A stretch of 64,000 bases of DNA from Polychytrium aggregatum (Eukaryota > Chytridiomycota > Chytridiomycetes > Polychytriales), in contig NW_026516230.1 in assembly GCF_025602895.1 (NCBI RefSeq), positions 248,001 to 312,000 of the forward strand, given 5' to 3'. This document shows positions 33,839-46,516 of this stretch, one piece after another (within the stretch, counting starts at the first letter, position 1; each line of letters opens with the position of its first letter). The notes beneath the pieces were generated by a model that saw only the letters and a list, made by a program, of their open reading frames with translations, was not told the origin of the DNA and ran no database searches. A program made the translations under genes and the position numbers.

Positions 33839-36800
33839 CTATCTGAGGAGCACTTCCAGCCGACCCTGAGCAATTTGATATCCCTGCTCAGCAGCTTTGC
33901 GGTACCATTCAATGGCTTTGTCAATGTCCCTGGTGACACCCAAAGAATTTTCGTAGCATTGTCCCAAAAATGTCTGTCCGTATCTATTGCCTTGATCGGC
34001 CGATCTCTGGAACCATGATATGGCTGCAGCGGGGTCACTTCGGACTCCATATCCCCATAAAGAGCATCGACCCATCATCCACTGTCCATATGAGTTGTTT
34101 TGATCGGCTGACTTCGAGAACCACTCGAAAGCCTTTGGGTCATTTTTGGGAACACCACAGCCATAATAATAACACGCTCCAATCCAAACCTGGCTGTCAC
34201 TGTGACCATCTTTGGCGAGTTGCTCGAAGATACTTGCTGCCATTGAAACATCCTTGGCGATTCCGAAGCCTTGGGCAAGGGAGACGGCAAACAGATGATT
34301 GCAGAGCCAATCGTGTGTGGATCCAAGTTGGCATAACTCGGCAAACTTCCGCACAGCAGGAGAGTAAGGTGTTGTGAATGAAGCACGTCGTACCGCGAGA
34401 CCATTGTTCTCTCCAAGTGGGAAGATATTCGACTGATTGTCGCGAATGAGTTGGATTCCCTTCCGCTGATCTCGTTCGGTACCTCGGCCAAGATAGAACA
34501 TCCAGCCAAGCATGTGAGTGGCGATGGGTTTGTGGATTGGATCATTGGAGTGGTCGTGGATATCTTGCCAGGAGTTGAAAGCATCGGAGTCACTCTGTGG
34601 TAAACCAAGACCAAGGAAGCAAGCCCAGGCGTGAAGGAATGTTTGGCTGAGGCTGGATTCATCGTGTCCCTGGTCAGCAGCCCACTTGTAGTAAGTCATG
34701 GCTCGAGCAGTATCAATCGATGTTCCGATTCCATATTCATGACATCGACCGAGGTGGAACTGGGCTTCACGATCCCCTTTGTTTGATTGCAGTTGCGATA
34801 ATTCGAAATAGTTCTTCCCTGCACTTGCATGGCCTTGATCAGCAGACTTCTGATACCAACCCAGTGCTCGAGTAGTATCAACCGATGTTCCGATTCCATG
34901 TTCATGACATCGACCAAGGTGGAATTGAGCACCAGGATGGCCATGATCAGCAGACTTCTGGTACCAACCCAGTGCTCGAGTAGTATCAACCGATGTTCCG
35001 ATTCCATGTTCATGACAACGACCAAGGTGGAGCTGTGCATCGACATTTCCAGCATTAGATTGTCGCTGTGATAATTCGAAATAACTCGTTGCGGCGTTGG
35101 CATGACCTCGATCGGCAGCCTTCTGATACCAAGTCAAAGCTTGCACAGGATCAATTGGTGTTCCGATTGCATATTCAAAACACCGACCAAGGTGATACTG
35201 AGCATCGACATTTCTCTCGTCAGATTGTCGCTGTAATAATTCGAAATAGTTCTTTGCTGCACTTGCATGGCCTTGATCAACAGCCTTCTGGTACCAACCC
35301 AGTGCTTGAGAAGTATCAACTGATGTTCCGATTCCATGTTCAAAACATCGACCAAGGTGATACTGAGCACCAGGATGACCATGATCAGCAGACTTCTGAT
35401 ACCAACTCAGTGCTTGAGTAGTATCAACCGATGTTCCGATTCCATGTTCAAAACATCGACCAAGGTGGAGCTGGGCTTCACGATCCCATTTGTTGGATTG
35501 CAGTTGCGATAATTCGAAATAGTTCTTTGAGGCGCTTGCGTGGCCTTGATCAACAGCCTTCTGGTACCAACCCAGTGCTTGAGAAGTATCAACTGATGTT
35601 CCGATTCCATGTTCATAACATCGACCAAGGTGGAACTGGGCTTCACGATCCCATTTGTTGGATTGCAGTTGCGATAATTCGAAATAGTTCTTTGAGGCGC
35701 TTGCGTGGCCTTGATCAACAGACTTCTGATACCAACCCAGTGCTTGAGAAGTATCAACTGATGTTCCGATTCCATGTTCATGACATCGACCAAGGTGATA
35801 CTGAGCACCAGGATGACCATGATCAGCAGACTTCTGATACCAACTCAGTGCTTGAGTAGTATCAACCGATGTTCCGATTCCATGTTCAAAACATCGACCA
35901 AGGTGGAGCTGGGCTTCACGATCCCATTTGTTGGATTGCAGTTGCGATAATTCGAAATAGTTCTTTGAGGCGCTTGCATGGCCTTGATCAACAGACTTCT
36001 GGTACCAACTCAGTGCTTGAGTAGTATCAACCGATGTTCCGATTCCATGTTCATGACATCGACCAAGGTGATACTGAGCATCGACATTTCCAGCATTAGA
36101 TTGTCGCTGTGATAATTCGAAATAGCTCGTTGCAGCGATTGCATGACCTTGATCAACAGCCTTCTGATACCAAGTGACGGCTCCACTGAGATCGATCGAT
36201 CCACCGATCCCATTCTCCAAGCAGCGTCCGAGATGGAATTGTCCGTCGGGATGCCCCTTCTGTGCTGCTCGATTGAACCAATGTCTTGCTGCAACTTGAT
36301 CGCTGTCGGCCCCACGACCTTGTTCAAACCACAATCCAACCCGCATCTGTGCCTCCGATTCACCCCAATCTGCAGAGATCCTGAAACACTCAAGCGCCTT
36401 GCTCAGATCTCCGTCGTTTCCCCGAGCCTCAAGGAAGCAACCATGACTGAAGTGTGTCTGTGTGCAGAGTCGACCCGATCAGTTTGCCATCAAGGTGATC
36501 AATCGAGTGCGACCCAAAGCCATGACTCACCTGGATCACCAGTGGTCGTCGATTCATCATGATCAGTGTCCCGTGAGTGCTGGTTTGGCGACAACTCCAC
36601 TCGTACATTCCATGTGGAACCTTGCACATCTGATCTCCTTGCCGTATCCACTGCGGGATGTCAACCTTCTCCCACACACTCGAGAGTGCCAGTGGATCTG
36701 TGGAGACTTTCAGGAGTTCCTCGCCCGAGACTTCTGACTGGACAAAGCATCCGTTGTGTCTGATCCACAGTGTGCGGTTGTCTTGCCAGTCAGTGGACTC

Positions 36801-39800
36801 GAGCAAGTCACCGTCCAAGGACAGGTTGATCGACTTGACACCGGTGTCATGGCCCTCGAGAGTCTGGATCAACTGGCCACTGTGTCCGTCCCAGATCTTG
36901 ATGGTCTTGTCGCTGGACCCTGATGCGATCAACTGGCCGTCACCAGAAACCGCCACAGCACTCACATCGGCAGTGTGCTCGATGGTGGTTTGGCTGGTGG
37001 TTGAGTTGGTGGTTTGGCTGGTGGTTGAGTTGGTGGTTTGGCTGGTGGCTTTGTTTGGCAGAATGCCGCTTGTGTCGACATCCCACAGCTTGATCGACTC
37101 GTCGCTGGAGGCCGACACAACCATTGCGCCATCCACCGATATCGCCACACAGTTCACCCAGTTGCTGTGGCCCTCGAGAGTCTGCTTCAGCCGGCCCGAT
37201 TCTGCGTCCCAGATCTTGATGGTGTTGTCCCACGAGCCAGAGACAATGGTCCTGCCATCGGATGAGATCTGAACAGAGGTCACATCTCTGCTGTGTCCAT
37301 CGAGTGTGATTCGCTCGCCTGTGGATGACTCCCGGATCTCGATCGAGCCATCGCCGAAGCCAGACACAATCACTTGACCATTGGCCGACACAGCAACACT
37401 GTTGACCACGTTGCCGCCGTCATCCATCTCGTCGTCCTCATAATCAAAATCATCGTCATCGTCATCATCCATCTCATCGTCATCGTCAAAATCATCGTCA
37501 AAATCATCGTCGCAGTCACTGCCTCTCGCAATGGTCTGCTTCAACCGACCCGTGGTGGCATCCCAGACCATGATGCGTTTGTCGCTCGAACCAGACACAA
37601 TCGTGGACCCGTCCGCTGAAACAGCCACAGAGTGAACTTCATCGCCGTGCTTGTCCATCGACAGACACAGTCGGCCAGTGGAAACGTCCCAAACACGGAC
37701 TGACTTGTCGTTGGATCCAGACACAATCGAGGCACTGTCAGGAAAGAACGAGATCGATCGCACAGCGTCGCTGTATCCTTTGATCGTCCGCTTCAGCTCG
37801 CCAGTGGTGGCATCCCAGATCTTGATCATGTTGTCCCACGAGCCAGAGGCAATCAGCTTGCCGTCGGACGAGAGTGCAACACACGCAACCTCGTCGTTGT
37901 GGCCATCGATGGTGAGGACTGCTTGGCCTGTGATGGCATCCCACACCTTGATGGTCTTGTCGTTCGAGCCTGATATGAACCACTTGCCATTGGGTGAGAT
38001 CGCCACAGAGTTCACTTGGCTCGAGTGACCAGTGAGTGTCATCTCACACGGATCCCAGGTGGGTGCTGGACCAGCCGTGACCAGGAACGGGATCTTGTCC
38101 TCGAGCTGGTCGGCATATGTCTTGTAGATCGCCGTCTCCTTTGGTGTGAATGCATACCCCGAGTTGTACACCTGTGGTGCACTCGCAATGATCGGGTCGG
38201 CAAACTCGCGGATGAATCGATACATGTCCTTGACCAGTTCCTTCGTGGTGTCGTCGACGATGGTGCTGGGTGCCTTGGCGATCACTCCTCGCAGCACAGC
38301 CAGTTGCTCGATGATCGGCTTGACCACATGTGTGAGCGACCCACACTCGAGCCAGAAGAACACATGAGTTTTGACGAACCGAGTGAGCACCACAGCCACA
38401 TCGACCATCTCGACCGACTGCCACACCGGACTCGACTCGGCCACTCCTTCCACACACCACACAAAGTGTGTGATCCAGTGGGCGACGCTGTATCGCTGCG
38501 ACGGTGTGATCTTGGCTGCGACCTTGTCCTCGAGGTCGGCGATATTGTCGTGAAAGTCGAAGATCTCGCAAATATTGATCACTGGCTTGTGCGAGAGGAT
38601 CACACCGAGACATCTATTGGCAAACACCGTGTGGAACTCTTTCGATACATGCCACGGATGGCCAGTCGATGCATCGCCGAGGAGATAGTCCGCCACCGAC
38701 TTGTGGTTGAACTTGACCTCGGTGTTGGTGGACTGGCTGTCTCGGGGACCCAGTCCATTGGCGCCAGGATCGAGGACCAGAGTGAGGCTCGTGAGACACT
38801 CGCGAACGACGCCGATCTCGAGTCCAAACACATCGGCGATGATCTGCGGGGTCAGGATCGACTGGGCCGTGGCGATCGCCGACACCACCGTGACCAGCTC
38901 GGCCGGGTGGCTCGATTGCGAGTGGATCTTGGCGAATGTCTTGTTGTACAACTGCCCGACATCGGCGGCGCTGTCGTTGATGTCCTTGATCGTGGCGAGT
39001 GTCACTGGGCCGTCTCTGGATGCTGAATCGACGGTGTTGAGGATCAGGTTGATCCACACGAATGTCTTGGACTGGTCCAGCAGGATGGCGACTGCCTCGG
39101 TGCGGTCCGAGTCAGTGAGAGTGCCATACACTCGCAGTCGGTGGTGGATGAACACCTCGAGATCACGGATGTTTTCCTCGCTCGAGGGTTCGATCGTCTT
39201 GGTCGGGACTCCATCGAATGCTGCCTTGATGTCCTCCTCGGGTCGGGATGTCATCAGCAACTTGAGCCACGGACGGGTCTTGTTCAGTTCGATAAACCGC
39301 ACGGCAAGCAGACTGAGCAGCTGATCGCGCGGAGAGCACTCGTCGAGTGCATCCACCAGGATCATCACCGATCCCTTGGGTCTGTAGTCGCCGATGGCTT
39401 CGAGTGGATCAGCAATCACGGCCTTGAACAGATCAGGGATGCTCATCTTGTCGAGGTCGTCCTTGGTGTGGCCAGCATCGAGGAGCTTGCGGCCGATCGG
39501 CGAGTGCCACTTGCACAGACCGTATGCGATGGTGTTCAACACCACTCGTGGATCGCTCTTGCGGATGTCATTGTATTTGAGGAACAGCGCCGACACCAGC
39601 TGGTTGGTGGCTGTGAGGATGTTGGCGATCTGGGCAGCAGCGACAGATTTGCCCACTCCAGCAACGGCATTGACCCACAGGACAGTGTCGGTGGTGTCCT
39701 GGTTGACCCAGTTGGTGGTTTGGTCGAAGAGCCACTGGCGGGTTCCCTCGACATACAGATCCTCGAGTGCACGTCTGTCCAGAGTCGAGTCGATGGGATC

Positions 39801-41183
39801 GAGGAGGGATCGCAGGAGCGAGTTCTGTTCTTTGGTGAGTTGGATGGGACTATCCTTGTGGTATGTTGCTCCTTGGACTGCTGCCGTCTTGGTCTTGGTG
39901 ATCAGGTTTCGGATATTGGGGACAAGCCTGAGTTTGGTGGATGGGTGAATGAGTGAGTGGATGAGTGAGTGAGTGAGTGAGTGAATGAGTGAGTGAGTGA
40001 GTGAGTGAGTGAGTGAGTGAGTGAGTGAGTGAGTGAGCGTTCAGGTTGTTCAGGTTTGGATATGATGATCAGTCGGCATGGCGAGTGACTGTTACCTCTT
40101 GAGAGCATTTTCATCAGCAGCATCGAGAGCCTGGAGCTTCATCAAGTCGCTGAACGTCTGCTGGATGGTCATCGGAAGTCCGTCGACCAGTGGGCTCTTG
40201 TTGTGGATCGGAGGATAACGAGGAAAGACGCTCGTATTGGGAAAGTATTTCTTGGATAGATCCTCGCCATCAACATGTCGCTTCGACCACATGAAGATTG
40301 GCTGGATGACAACATGCTGGCCGGTGGTGTCCTCATCCTTCATTCTCTTGAGAGCGTGCTGGATCTGTGGAGGGAGTGAGGGCGAGAGTGAGTGAGATTG
40401 GACTGGCCCACCCTCCAGCGTCGATGCTGTCGGCTCGCTCGTTACCTCGAGCAACTGGTTGTCTGGCTTGAGGTGGGCCTCGAAGGTGCGTTTCAGACCC
40501 TCCTCCGACAGCAACAAGACAATCACATTCGATCGATACAGCCCGTTGATGAAACCCTGCTCCCAGTCAGCGCCGTCACAAAGGCAGAGGCTGTCGAGAT
40601 ATATATGGGCTGCTGTCTCGCCCCGACTGTTGGCCGACAGGGCTCCATGCAGGGCCATGGCATTAACGGTGTCACTGCTGACTCGATAGCTGCGACGGGT
40701 GTGAGGAGTCAGTTGGTGGCGAGTGGGTCCGATGAGAAATGCGATGGCTCGCCCACCTGATGAACACATCGTGAATGTCATATTCCAACTGGCACTTCCA
40801 CTCTGCAGTCGGAGTCGCTGGAGTGTAGTCTCGAGGCTGCATGATGATGGTCGGTGGTGTATTTGCTGCTGCAAGGTGAGGGTCAGGCTGGATGGCAACA
40901 GTCGGCGGGTTGGAGGCATGTGCCGCTTGGGCCCTTTGCAGCTTCTTGATAGCCCCTGGCTTCATTCCGATCTCCTTCATGTCATCCACACTGAGGGCGA
41001 GAAGCTGGAACACATGGCCGATTGTCAGGAGCAGTTGGCTGATCGGCAGGGGCGCAGAGCGACATCCATGTTGCCTCTGCTCACCAGCTCGACCGTGTCG
41101 TATTCGTTCTCCAGGATGACATTCTTGTATCGAACAAGGTCGCTTTGCTGGAGGAACTCGTCGAAGGCGCCCCCTGGATCCAT
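33839..41183 (-). CDS. SAM-TIR-NACHT-WD40-Sel1 NLR-type protein (2,291 aa)
   Basis: Six exons: 41,183-41,085, 41,004-40,757, 40,689-40,446, 40,364-40,096, 39,927-36,531 and 36,457-33,839. All have GT-AG ends and total exactly 2,292 codons. Residues 4-62 are a SAM domain (YDTVELLLALSVDDMKEIGM). Residues 105-245 are a TIR domain (HDVFISYR; NVIVLLLSEEGLK; DNQLLEIQHAL, with candidate catalytic Glu197). An NTPase of NACHT type has Walker A AVAGVGKS (374-381) and Walker B ILVDALDE (around 476-483), then the R-containing LMTSRPEED sensor. About nine WD40 repeats span 915-1,335, with an Asp-rich insert (about 1,089-1,120) and a Thr/Gln/Asn linker. Sel1 repeats fill 1,420-2,291. NLR proteins oligomerise after sensing a ligand with their repeats; TIR domains of this kind often hydrolyse NAD. 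Transcription is divergent from the next NLR. No gene symbol exists. Confidence 0.9.
34700..36180 (-). repeat. Sel1 repeat array with 438-bp higher-order units
   Basis: The Sel1-coding exon is made of 108-bp (36-aa) units alternating with units of about 165 bp that carry a NYFELSQLQSN insert. The pattern GATCAGCAGACTTCTGATAC recurs at 35,383 and 35,821, exactly 438 bp (146 codons) apart, and the sequence stays almost identical for at least 200 bp after it. The similarity is at nucleotide level including silent sites, so duplication or gene conversion is recent. Confidence 0.92.
39944..40036. repeat. (GAGT)n microsatellite in NLR intron 4
   Basis: Over 20 copies of GAGT/GAAT lie inside the intron (40,095-39,928) that precedes the NACHT exon of the SAM-TIR-NACHT gene. 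Confidence 0.95.
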
Positions 41184-42230
41184 GTCAATAACGCCTCGCG
41201 GGGTGGGTGTATGAGCGAGATCGGCCTGGTATCGTGGACGAGGATGCTGTCCTGTCGCTTGGGGCGATGGAGGCTGAGGAGATTTGGAGGGAAAGAGGAG
41301 GACAGAGGCCATTTCATCTCTCGCCCGAACGCCACCCATTCCGTCGACTCACTCGCCATCCACTTGTCGTCAACACTGTGCACACAATCAACCAGCAACC
41401 TGGTGTGCTTCTGGCTGCGACTCTCTGATGGCAACATACAGCTCTCATCTGTGATGGCCATCCTTCGAGATCCACCGGCTCCAAGTGCACAGCGTCAACG
41501 GACGATCAACGAAGCTCCACTCCACACTCAAGGTTCCAGAGCGGTCAGCAAACGACGCCTTGCCTGCGAGATATCCACGGACGGTGCTGGCTGCTCGCTC
41601 TGACCGATCACATTCACCCATCAACCACCCACAGCGGCAGCCATGGATGCAGCAGCCGAGCCATCTCCGTCTCCGGTCCTGGATCGCGAAGTATGCTCCA
41701 GGAGTGGATGAGCAGCAGATCATGGGATACACCACCAGCACTAGCTGTCTGGGGTTCCTCAAGCCCATCAATAATCGCTTTTGTCGATGAATTCCTCACA
41801 AACGGTGAACTTTCATGGAAACAGGGTGTCCCAATCCTCATATCTTGGCTGCCGCTAGTATCCGCTATGCTCCAAACCATGACCAAGTGATCCGCAACCC
41901 ACGGGCGGCGGGAGTCTGTGGATCGCATTGTCATCGTGATATCCCAAACTTGAACCTTCGTTCAAACCACCCATCCCCAGACCCGCCGGCACACAGCGGA
42001 CTGCATCCGCCTGCATCATCCCCGATGCACCCCAGCGCAATGCACCGCCAGCGCGGGTTGTGTCATGCGCGCCTTCACTCCGACTGGGCGGAGCTCCAAG
42101 CGCTCTGGCCTCGTCCTCCTCTGTCGAGACATTATATCAAGATTCAGATCGCTTTCCCTTCGATCTCGGGTCTCTCTCATTGATCGATCCTTGCTCAACC
42201 AGTGTTTTGTTGCTGCTGCGGCTGCCACCG
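41184..42230. promoter_or_regulatory. Bidirectional promoter of the two NLR genes
   Basis: 1,047 bp separates the ATG of the leftward SAM-TIR-NACHT gene from that of the rightward TIR-NB-ARC-TPR gene, so transcription start sites and 5' UTRs of both lie here. No gene was recognised inside. A transposon-end-like fragment sits at 41,775-41,832. Just before 42,231 the sequence is CTG/CTC-rich. Confidence 0.6.
41775..41832 (+). mobile_element. Possible decayed end of a mariner-Fanzor relative
   Basis: TCGCTTTTGTCGATGA (41,775-41,790) matches 15 of 16 bases of the transposase FVDE coding motif at 11,396-11,411. TTCATGGAAAC (41,812-41,822) is identical to the inner flank of the right end of the full element. 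GGGTGTCCC (41,824-41,832) is the reverse complement of the GGGACACCC next to the left terminal-repeat core. The three matches occur in a sensible order within 58 bp, but each is short. Confidence 0.3.
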
Positions 42231-45200
42231 ATGCTCTCCACCGCACCCAGCCAGCCTCATTCCTGTCATATCCACGGTACGGACCACGACCTGTTCCTCT
42301 CATACCAAGCCCAGACTGATGCCGACACTGTCCAGGCTCTGAAGGAGGTGCTCACCTCAGTCGCCCTTCGTCGATATGGCAAACCCCTTTCCGTCTTCCA
42401 CGATGTCGACTGCCTCAACAATCCCAACGACCCTCCAGCCAGTTCTATCAGTGCCCTCCCCACCAGCAAGGCCGTCTTCCTGCTCCTCAGCAAAGCCTCG
42501 ATGGACCTGATGAAGGACAAGGTCCTCTCAAGCCAAGAGGACAGCGCCGTCCTCGAAATCAAGACCGCCCTCGATCTCAAGGATGCCAATCCCGCTCTGC
42601 CTGTCCTTCCCCTCGGAATCGCCACCAAGGAAACCAAGGATGGTGTCGATGGCTTCACTCCCGTCTTGCCGAACATGGTGTCCCTCCCCGACGACCCTGC
42701 CTTTGCCCCTCTCAAACAGACCCTCACCAGAATGAACCAGCTGCAGCCATATGGCTTTCGTCCCGACCAGATGCACAAACGAGTTTACCATCTCCTCAAT
42801 CTCGTCCATCCGGTTCAAGTGGATGATAGCACCAGCCGGGTCCTCGACACTGTCTTCTGCGACTCCAACTTCCGAGTCGATCCCACTCACTTGGACACCT
42901 TGCTCAAGCAGCTCACCCTGACTGGCCGCGCCGTCATCTCCGGCATGGGTGGTATGGGCAAGTCCGTCCTGGCCAGCCAGATCGTTCATTTCATGATGGG
43001 TACTCTCAATGTGAGCAACAAGGACGACCTTCTCGCCATCCAAGCCGAGACCATCGGCACCAAACCGCAGTACAGCCAAGTCTTCTGGATCAACTGTGCC
43101 AGCGAATCTACGGCCATCGACAGCCTCATGGGTATCTTCCCAGACATGCAATCTAGCGACATCAAAGAACACGCCTCGAGGTTCCTCGCCAGCAACCGCA
43201 ACTATCTTCTCATCATCGACAATGTCGATGACATCAGCGTGGCCGATTCTGTGTTTGAGCACTCCAAGTCGGTCGGGTTCGGCGGCGATGTGATCGTGAC
43301 GACTCGGCTTCCGCTTCTTCCCGACGGCGCCTTGCTCAATGCCATGAGTGCAAACCTCCCCGAGTTCCAGCAGGATCCGCTCAGGCTTTCGTCATGGCCC
43401 AGCCATGTGGCTCTCGAGTACCTGGTCTCGACCACACCCACGCTTGCTGCAAAGCTCGACTCTGACGAAGCCAAAACAAAGCTGCAGAGTCTCATCGCCA
43501 AAGTCGATGGCTATCCCTTGGTCATTCAAGCGCTCCGCAGCTATGCCGAGTGTGGCGGCAGTCTGCTCGACGACATTGAGACGAACTTTGAAGACATTCT
43601 CCGGGACAAGAATGGTGAAGACAGCAACCGATCTTCCCTCGGCGCTGTCGTCCATCTTGCAATTGAGGCTCTGATGAGGCGAGGAGAAGATGGCGCCGAG
43701 GCGTGCAAGATGTTTGGGGCCGTCACTCTGCTGGGTCCGGATGCCATTTCCTCTGAGCTTCTCAAATCCATTGCCGAGGAAATGAAGCTCTCTACAGCCC
43801 GTAAGTGTGGAAGCGTTCCTTGCTGCGAGATGTACTTGCCTATCGACAACCCGTCTAACTGCAGCCTTTCCTCCCAGCGTCAACCCTGACGCACGTCCTT
43901 TGCGAGAGCGGCTTCCTTCGAGGTGGTGCCAACGATATGTTCCACACCCACGCCTTGATCCAGAAGGTTGCTCATGATTTGATCAAGCATCGCAGTGATT
44001 TCAATATTGACGATATCGAAGAAGCCACCGGCAAATCCCTCTTGGCGCTCACGGAGTCGCTGGACCTGCAGTCCCTCCCGCTCTCGGATCACTTGGAGCA
44101 GTATGCCTGCATGGCGATTCCGGAAGTGCATACAAAGGAGCTGCACGGCTCCATCAAACTTCAGATAGCCCTCCTGGCACAAAAGCGTGCCCTGTACTCC
44201 AAGGCCATGCGAACCCACCAGCAAAACCTGGAGCGGTCCATACAATACTATGGGACTAGAGATCAACTCTTTGTCGCCCATATTCTTGGCGGCATTGGTA
44301 AGACCGCAGCGAGCCAGGGCCGCTACGAGGAGGCAATCCAGTACCATCAAGAGGCTTTGGATATCCAGGTCAGGCTCTGCGGCACACGAGAAGATCTCGG
44401 TGTTGCAGCCACAATCGTCGAGCTTGCCAATCTCGAGAGCGCCCAGAGTCGATACGATGCCGCCAACGCGCTGCTTCAAGAAGCATTAGACATCACTATC
44501 AAAGTCCATGGAACCCGCGAGCACTCTGACGTTTCGGAAATATTATTGGAGAAGGCAACCCTCGATGAAATGGAATTCCGTTTCGATGCCGCCATACAGC
44601 ATTACGAAGAAGCCATCGAAATCGAAACCAAGGTTCGCAAGACTCGGCAGACCCAGGTTGTAGCCGACATCATCTATCACATCGGTTCGACCCTCAGCAC
44701 CCAAAATCGCTTTGACGAGGCCTTCCGCCGCTACCAAGAGGCACTTGGAATAGTCCGAAACGACCACGCAGCCCACGCTTCCCCTCTTACTGCCATGATC
44801 CTCCAAAACATGGGCTTTGCAGCCGCCAAGCTGGGTCAATACGAAGATGCCCGCCGGTACTACCAGGGGTCGCTCGACATCAACACCAAGATATATGGCA
44901 CGCGCGACCACCCCAGCGTCTCCGAGATCCTCTATTGGATGGGCATCCTGGCCAAAGACCAGGGGCGCTACGACGAGGCCGTGGCTCTCTACGAAGAAGC
45001 CGTAGCCGTCAAAACCAGAATCTTTGGAACGCGAGACCATCCGCAGATCGCGACCGTGCTATTTTCTCTCGGCTTTGTCTCGTATCGCCAGGGTCGCCTG
45101 GACGATTCTCTTCGATACTACCAGGAGGCACTCCGAATCAACATCCAAACCTTTGGCACCAGAATGCACTCGGATGTGGCCCATGTGCTCTACAGCCTCG

Positions 45201-46516
45201 GCGAAACCAAGAGAGCCCAGCGACAGCTGGACGATGCCAGAGCCTACTACCAGGAGGCATATGACATCTTCATGTCCATCTATGGCACCCGTGAGCATCC
45301 AAATGTCGCTGTCGCCCTCATGGGCTTGGGCAACGTCGCCAAGAGCCAGGGCCGGATCGACGAGGCCTACGGTCACATCCACGCGCAGCTTGATATCTAC
45401 ACCAAGCTCTACGGAACGCACGAGCAGCCCGATGTTGCGCTCTCGATGGTGGGGCTCGGCAACCTACTGAGTATACAGCGGCGCTTTGACGAGGCATCAA
45501 AGTACTATGCCGATGCTCTCCGGATCCAGATCAAGCTCTTTGGCACCCGCCAGCACCTCCAAGTGGCCAGGACCCTCATGGCTATGGGCAACAACGCCGA
45601 GCGCCAAGATCATCACGACGACGCACTCCAATACTTCCAGGAGGAAGTCGACATATTTCGCAAAGTCTCTGGCTCCGACAAGCTCCCTGAGGTGTCCACG
45701 ACCTTGGTGAAGATGGGGAAGATTGCCAAGCGACAAGGCCGCGACAACGCCGCCCATGGCTATTTCCAGCAGGCACTCGATGTGGCCCTGAAGCTCTACG
45801 AAACTCCCGACCATCCGACGGTTGCATCGATCCGTATCGAGCTCAGCAAGCTTGGTCGCGACCAAAGCGTGGACGGGCACTCGCTCGAGCAGCTGCAGGA
45901 GGAACTGGATCTGAAAGCCAAGGCGCTCGGAACTCGGGTTCACGTCGATGTTGCCCGTCTGCTTGCCACCATGGGCCACAAAGCCAGGAACCAAGAGCAG
46001 TTTGCTGACGCACATAGATTCTTCAGCGAGGAGCTTGCGATCCACACCGAGCTCAACGGCACGGTCGAGCATCTGTCCGTTGCCAAAGCGCATGTGTCGC
46101 TCGGACTCGTTTCCAAGTCACAAGGTGACCTTGATGTCGCTCTGGAGCACTTCCGAGTGGCCGTTGGCATATTTGAGACCATCCATGAAACCCGCGACCA
46201 CCTCGACATTGCAAAATCGCTTGCCAGCATCGGAACTGTGCTGTGGAAGCAGGGCTTCCTGGACGACGCCCTGGACTGCTTACAGGAGTGTCTCGACATC
46301 TTTGTCAGAGTCTATGACACTTGGGAGCACTACGAGGTCGCTCGGACGGTCGAAACTATCGCTGTCTTGAACGACAGGCGCGGCAACCATAACGAGGCCC
46401 TTCGCAACTTCCGGGAGGCGTATTCGATCTACAAGCGCCTGTATCATAACGACTTGCATCCGGCTGTTCAAAAGGTCCAGCGGGAGATTTCTCGGCTCAC
46501 GAGGCGACGGTGGTAG
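42231..46516 (+). CDS. TIR-NB-ARC-TPR NLR-type protein (1,402 aa)
   Basis: Two exons, 42,231-43,800 and 43,878-46,516, join in phase 1 (GTAAGT...CTCCCAG). Residues 18-150 form a TIR-like domain: DHDLFLSYQ, VFHDVD, KAVFLLLSKASM and EDSAVLEIKTAL, with a candidate catalytic Glu109, then LPVLPLGIA. The NB-ARC ATPase has a P-loop GMGGMGKS (238-245), a kinase-2/Walker B YLLIIDNVDD (325-334), an RNBS-B-like DVIVTTRLPL and a GYPLVIQAL (GLPL-type) motif. A winged-helix segment follows and an HALIQ element replaces the canonical MHD. From about residue 600 to the end there are roughly 18 TPRs of the kinesin-light-chain type (42-residue period, for example YGTRDHPSVSEILYWMGILA). TPR arrays serve as the ligand-sensing end in fungal NLRs. 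It is divergent from the SAM-TIR-NACHT gene. Confidence 0.92.

Follow-up and report, generated by a model that had tools for sequence, protein, structure and literature searches.

Domain architecture of the window gene

We analysed a 64,000-nucleotide (nt) stretch of contig NW_026516230.1 from Polychytrium aggregatum, here called the window, which carries on its minus strand (41,183-33,839) a gene of the NOD-like receptor (NLR) type. Rebuilding the gene independently from the sequence yielded 6 exons and 5 in-frame GT-AG introns (80, 67, 81, 168 and 73 nt for introns 1-5), in agreement with an initial annotation that had proposed a six-exon splice into exactly 2,292 codons. The spliced frame of 6,876 nt, stop codon included, has 0 internal stops and encodes 2,291 residues, arranged as follows.

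41085..41183, minus strand: exon 1, the start and first half of SAM (rebuilt model; SAM_1 at residues 9-58, 33.1 bits, Pfam cut-off 23)
40757..41004, minus strand: exon 2, the rest of SAM, a linker and the first TIR strand (HDVFIS)
40446..40689, minus strand: exon 3, the N-terminal half of TIR, with Glu197 as its last codon (40448-40446)
40096..40364, minus strand: exon 4, the C-terminal half of TIR
36531..39927, minus strand: exon 5, the NACHT-type NTPase (NPHP3_N) and the WD40 region (9 WD40 stretches)
39243..39746, minus strand: core match to NPHP3_N, residues 348-515
36693..38015, minus strand: WD40 repeat region, about residues 925-1365, with a strongly Asp-rich insert near 37416-37512
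36458..36530, minus strand: intron 5, 73 nt, phase 0, linking WD40 to Sel1
33839..36457, minus strand: exon 6, an internally repeated Sel1 solenoid of 872 residues (16 Sel1 stretches) and the stop codon

The start codon at 41,183 is assumed; an alternative in-frame ATG at 41,339 would add 52 N-terminal residues, and in the region upstream of 41,183 the window is identical to both copies compared.

Profile searches against Pfam matched SAM, a NACHT-type NTPase (NPHP3_N, 96.7 bits, cut-off 24.8), the 9 WD40 and the 16 Sel1 stretches, with TIR_2 below its cut-off in the window protein; for exon 5, the results are the best 25 of 59 families. The NACHT sequence contains GVGKS and VDALDE, which we take to be its Walker A and Walker B motifs. 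Within residues 1-306, SAM-type models and TIR_2 were the only Pfam matches at E<=1, with no HET domain among them, and SAM is present as one stretch rather than two in tandem. ARM repeats gave no Pfam match at E<=1 in residues 1-306, in exon 6 or among the best 25 families of exon 5. An NCBIfam scan of the SAM-TIR part returned no matches, and a genome-wide scan with PF00536 reported none at the window gene, probably because an intron splits SAM. Scans for tRNA and Rfam families across the window were likewise without matches.

A family of related genes in one genome

The P. aggregatum genome (64.68 Mb, 418 contigs) contains many near-identical locus pairs, as expected for two haplotypes. It holds 27 matches to Zn2Cys6 domains, which mark fungi, and 14 to the ciliary protein IFT46, which marks cilia; together, these sequences point to a ciliated, zoosporic fungus. 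The SAM-TIR part of the window gene had 190 matches in this genome and the NACHT part 77, which became 73 NACHT loci after we merged split ones. We examined the 30 best NACHT matches, the window's own included (L039-L068), a sample in which more diverged NACHTs are under-represented. By tblastn, with order and strand examined, both TIR exons, NACHT and WD40 were found in 30/30 loci, and SAM was detected in 25/30. As a correction to the initial annotation, the genome contains dozens of paralogs with the SAM-TIR-NACHT-WD40 layout, the window gene among them.

WD40 and Sel1 repeats on one chain

Paralogs from the same genome were used to test the continuity of the chain. The intron between WD40 and Sel1 (GTGAGT...CAG) lies at the same columns in five loci, namely the window, C42, C201 at 353 kb, C201 at 386 kb and C57 (locus L070). 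In C57 it is net seven bases longer, through indels of one and six, and the adjoining frames are open, the one with the WD40 tail for 146 residues and the Sel1 one for 460; the shortness of the former implies a further intron or break in the WD40 region of this copy. Two distant members on C223 and C203, whose NACHTs are 80% and 66% identical to that of the window, show a WD40 frame that stops just past a possible donor and is followed by a Sel1 frame, with fitting phase-0 splices as in the window (several phase-compatible pairs were computed, and those at the WD40 tail adopted).

We considered whether the Sel1 exon could be a separate downstream gene, with the NLR ending after WD40. Such an arrangement would accord with the abundance of Sel1 genes in this genome and with the stop that unspliced read-through at the intron 5 donor meets at the 34th codon. 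However, the first ATG of the Sel1 frame in the window sits within a Sel1 repeat, so that Sel1 makes a poor separate gene. Boundaries kept in five loci, a C57 intron that differs by seven bases yet separates open frames, and a WD40-Sel1 layout shared by the distant C223 and C203 members argue further against two genes, and we rejected this explanation as scarcely credible. The comparison of intron 5 instead upholds the placing of WD40 and Sel1 on one chain. Taken with the Pfam matches, it confirms at the sequence level, and with good support, the gene that the initial annotation had described as joining SAM, TIR, NACHT, about nine WD40 repeats and Sel1.

In the region 36429-36530, retention of intron 5 would cut the protein off behind WD40 and produce a shorter form that lacks Sel1.

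A SAM-TIR front resembling the effector part of SARM1

To characterize the TIR, we aligned 9 representative spliced sequences, hand-picked from the 30 loci; L060, L062 and L068 (splices not resolved by script) and L063 (Gly at the Glu codon) were left out, and the rest were close copies. TIR_2 was recovered at E<=0.1 in 9/9 of these sequences (best 5e-8). Searching all PDB chains with the nine-TIR profile gave 21 distinct sequences at E<=1, of which 17 were SARM1 (E 4.9e-4 to 0.069); SARM1 was the sole TIR protein among these matches, with no plant, bacterial or Toll-type TIR. In the profile alignment, Glu197 falls on the E of the SARM1 motif HKEIVTAL, the catalytic Glu642, and the codon is GAG in 29/30 loci. 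These results agree with the initial annotation, which had put Glu197 at the position of the catalytic Glu of TIR-type NAD+-cleaving enzymes (NADases), and the SAM_1 match together with the SARM1-only TIR matches in the PDB bears out its likening of SAM beside TIR to SARM1.

Several observations weigh against this likeness. The TIR_2 match of the window protein alone, at residues 113-208, scores 21.1 bits (21-22 bits overall), under the cut-off of 28. The E-values of the SARM1 matches are moderate, and the other PDB matches are unrelated proteins, three being VCAM-1 (E about 0.05) and one an acetyltransferase (0.49). SAM was not found by tblastn in 5/30 loci, and one locus of the 30, L063 on C66, has GGG (Gly) at the Glu codon, possibly representing a dead-effector or regulatory member, or else a sequencing error. 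On balance, the sequence comparisons indicate that the TIR resembles that of SARM1 and keeps the catalytic Glu; the window protein appears similar to the effector part of SARM1 and is not classed as a SARM1 member.

Alternatively, the TIR might lack NADase activity and act as a scaffold for protein-protein contacts that brings in other TIR proteins, Glu197 then being structural. A candidate partner adjoins head-to-head, a TIR-NB-ARC gene with a TIR-like domain of its own and TPR repeats, and the L063 copy lacking the Glu would fit such a role. Yet the listed family coordinates show this close pairing nowhere but at the window and its C42 copy, 29/30 loci retain the Glu codon despite near synonymous saturation of the TIR exons between subfamilies, and the only TIR protein matched in the PDB is itself an NADase. 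We therefore regard a pure scaffold as rather unlikely and retain a catalytic TIR as the working interpretation.

The exon boundaries of the SAM-TIR part were compared across the 30 loci. The site of intron 2 is at the same place in 27/30 loci (the script accepted GT..AG only), a GT directly follows the Glu codon in 30/30, and an AG precedes exon 4 in 29/30; intron lengths differ from subfamily to subfamily across the 30 loci. Intron 3 (40365-40445, 81 nt) is in frame and free of stops, and its retention would insert 27 residues right after Glu197. This state is common to several copies, others having a stop or a different length, and its retention could be a form of splice control. Two further copies deviate in this region. 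L065 agrees with L061/L064 throughout its first TIR exon and into the next, the remainder of which is L043-like, so there seems to have been an exchange inside the TIR. The C201:382 kb copy (L019, L040) gave no SAM match and no exon 1 sequence, its exon 2 matching from residue 54, and it possibly lacks a full SAM.

A uniform NACHT switch between diverse ends

We next compared the divergence of the individual domains. Between the window gene and its paralogs, three close copies excluded, synonymous divergence (dS) in the TIR exons was about 0.8 or higher, up to saturation, as against 0.17-0.27 in the N-terminal and 0.08-0.15 in the C-terminal half of NACHT. A sliding profile of the proportion of synonymous differences (pS) was then computed for 14 members, to which the 30 loci collapse at 97.5% TIR identity, with 60-91 pairs per window of the profile. 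Median pS was 0.62-0.76 in TIR windows, 0.48 and 0.31 for windows starting at residues 297 and 327, and 0.17-0.27 for starts at 357-417. It stayed at 0.04-0.15 from about residue 447 to 906, was 0.43 over the NACHT/WD40 border and reached 0.67, 0.64 and 0.52 in WD40 windows. The block of low synonymous divergence spans about residues 350-906, and its right edge is firmer than the WD40 values, which come from tblastn alignments that may mispair repeats.

Linkage within NACHT was assessed in 27 sequences (thinned at 99.5% NACHT identity) with 157 biallelic sites. The squared correlation between sites (r2) was 0.24 for sites <10 bp apart and only 0.06-0.10 at distances above 10 bp; a decay this extreme arose in 0/1000 position shuffles, and all four gametes were present in 35-61% of NACHT site pairs, depending on distance class. 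Among pairs with TIRs <90% identical (324/351), median NACHT identity was 94%, with a weak correlation to TIR identity (r 0.30). According to these data, the simplest reading is that family-wide short-tract gene conversion homogenises the NACHT switch while both ends of the protein stay diverse. Two results count against complete homogenisation: over all 351 pairs, NACHT and TIR identity correlate at r 0.58, and median NACHT identity is 97% for the 26 pairs with TIRs >=97% identical vs 94% for the others. Shared descent is therefore still visible and mixing is incomplete.

The low NACHT divergence could in principle also stem from recent whole-gene duplication combined with strong constraint on the protein, with no gene conversion. 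Nonsynonymous differences (pN) in NACHT are low as well, some loci are haplotype copies, and NACHT identity correlates in part with TIR identity. However, domains of the very same genes differ several-fold to about ten-fold in synonymous divergence, and NACHT linkage falls with distance, with all four gametes seen in so large a share of site pairs. We considered this explanation very improbable and rejected it in favour of gene conversion.

The uniform NACHT between diverse ends was unexpected and had no place in the initial annotation; we regard it as the most interesting part of this family. For the NACHT-WD40 family of Podospora, a 2007 study describes the reverse pattern, with homogenised WD40 repeats and more divergent NACHTs (PMC1805685). 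A homogenised switch between diverged ends offers a testable model of how an NLR family may diversify without loss of function.

Variation of the sensor repeats

WD40 differs strongly between loci, including loci with nearly identical TIRs. Among 435 locus pairs, 14 were alike in both TIR and WD40, 18 had similar TIRs and different WD40, and 1 showed the reverse. The 18 pairs include haplotype copies, and two of them, with WD40 at 93-94%, come from the window group; the 18 pairs weakly support module exchange, and fast WD40 change could explain part of the pattern.

The Sel1 array varies in length. Its open frames comprise 872 (window), 1207, 769, 568 and 460 residues in five copies, the window value being exon 6 alone and the others including a few flanking residues, and by motif count four of the five copies contain 10, 17, 8 and 4 near-identical Sel1 units. 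Per codon, these units have an overall ratio of nonsynonymous to synonymous differences (pN/pS) of 0.64, with changes gathered at few codons, a distribution given here as a description. For the het genes of Podospora, PMC1805685 states that variable repeats of the sensor array set specificity. The similarly varying number of Sel1 repeats suggests a role in recognition.

Sel1 is very abundant genome-wide: a first look produced 1,401 candidates, of which 150 were scored, and the WD40 tail searched together with the first Sel1 repeats had 243 matches in the genome.

Proposed function and relation to known systems

In our view, the window gene probably encodes an intracellular NLR-type sensor of a zoosporic fungus, composed of a SAM-TIR effector, a homogenised NACHT switch and a WD40/Sel1 sensor. 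The WD40/Sel1 part would bind a ligand, a foreign protein or a disturbed self protein, upon which the NACHT-type NTPase would oligomerise and thereby cluster SAM and TIR. The clustered TIR may then cleave NAD+ through Glu197, and the cell would be killed or alarmed, whether to ward off other organisms or to tell self from non-self. The architecture, the conserved Glu and the pattern of divergence are established by sequence; the steps from sensing through oligomerisation and catalysis to the outcome are modelled here on how SARM1, the TIR-NLRs of plants and the NLRs of Podospora work. Homogenisation of the switch would keep the NTPase of each member working while effectors and sensors vary. 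A receptor for development or housekeeping, rather than for defence or non-self recognition, seems improbable to us, as the family is large and diverse and varies in the repeat number of its sensors, in the manner of the Podospora allorecognition genes (PMC1805685). As a more tentative extension of the sensor hypothesis, the family could form a combinatorial immune repertoire, in which SARM1-like SAM-TIR NADases are joined to WD40 or WD40 plus Sel1 sensors, the gene-converted uniform NACHT serves as a recombination hub that exchanges the ends, and alleles vary in Sel1 number.

The comparative sequence evidence supports the original description, in which a fungal gene of the NLR type combines a SARM1-like SAM-TIR front with two sensor-repeat classes, and this layout can be set beside several known systems. 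With the fungal NACHT-WD40 NLRs (HET-E/HET-D, the Podospora NWD family), it shares an N-terminal effector, NACHT, WD40, the family-wide exchange of sequence and the variable repeats; here, SAM-TIR replaces HET, and a Sel1 array is added in part of the family. Plant TIR-NB-LRR receptors combine a TIR effector, a STAND switch and sensor repeats. The window gene follows the same effector-switch-sensor plan; its switch matches NPHP3_N (NACHT type) instead of NB-ARC and its repeats WD40/Sel1 instead of LRR, judged for exon 5 among the best 25 of 59 families.

SARM1 has two tandem SAM domains, and it is similar to the window protein in the order of SAM and TIR and in the aligned catalytic Glu. SARM1 proteins carry multiple SAM and/or ARM repeats and a C-terminal TIR (PMC7075850), whereas the window protein has one SAM and no ARM that we found, and its TIR lies towards the N-terminus of an NLR. 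Homologs of SARM1 are also noted for choanoflagellates (PMC6040629). A SARM1-like SAM-TIR directly on a fungal NLR bears on the link between the animal axon-death TIR enzyme and plant TIR immunity.

The initial annotation had called a TIR on a fungal NLR unusual. Such proteins are indeed rare, but they are already in print: excerpts of PMC9815663 state that TIR occurs in NLRs of Chytridiomycota, describe a TIR-like cluster in Pezizomycotina, and introduce SAM_Ste50p as a new N-terminal annotation of NLRs, with TIR-like N-termini listed apart from it. The window gene shares with these fungal NLRs an effector of the TIR clan, and differs in having both a SAM-TIR pair and Sel1, neither of which is given in those excerpts. 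Literature searches for SAM-TIR with NACHT in fungi and for NLRs with TIR in early-diverging fungi found no papers, which is weak evidence, subscription journals and bioRxiv being mostly uncovered; among papers on Sel1 with NLR, WD40 or NACHT in fungi and on NACHT with TIR in Chytridiomycota, none concerned this architecture by title or start of abstract. A 2014 survey reports no NLR hits in chytrids (PMC4986451). With dozens of NLR-type genes in a single ciliated fungus, the view of how NLRs are distributed among fungi would change.

The head-to-head neighbour

Separate from the NLR gene, the window contains the following gene.

42231..46516, plus strand: head-to-head neighbour, with TIR-like, NB-ARC and TPR parts

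The assumed start codons of the two genes are separated by 1,047 nt. The neighbour has a TIR-like domain with a LEIKTAL motif, an NB-ARC match of 35.8 bits (cut-off 23.5) and a long TPR region, which brings it nearer to plant TIR-NB-LRR receptors in switch type. Its TIR-like region had no matches in the PDB by phmmer; one relative, L006, is 43% identical to it across the TIR-like part and exceeds the cut-off for TIR_2. The neighbour is among 86 genome matches that make up a TIR-like plus NB-ARC family. Head-to-head pairing with a TIR-NB-ARC gene was rejected as a general rule, since by-eye comparison of coordinates showed close pairs only at the window and the C42 copy. On C223, C252 and C101, divergent members lie about 15-16 kb apart.

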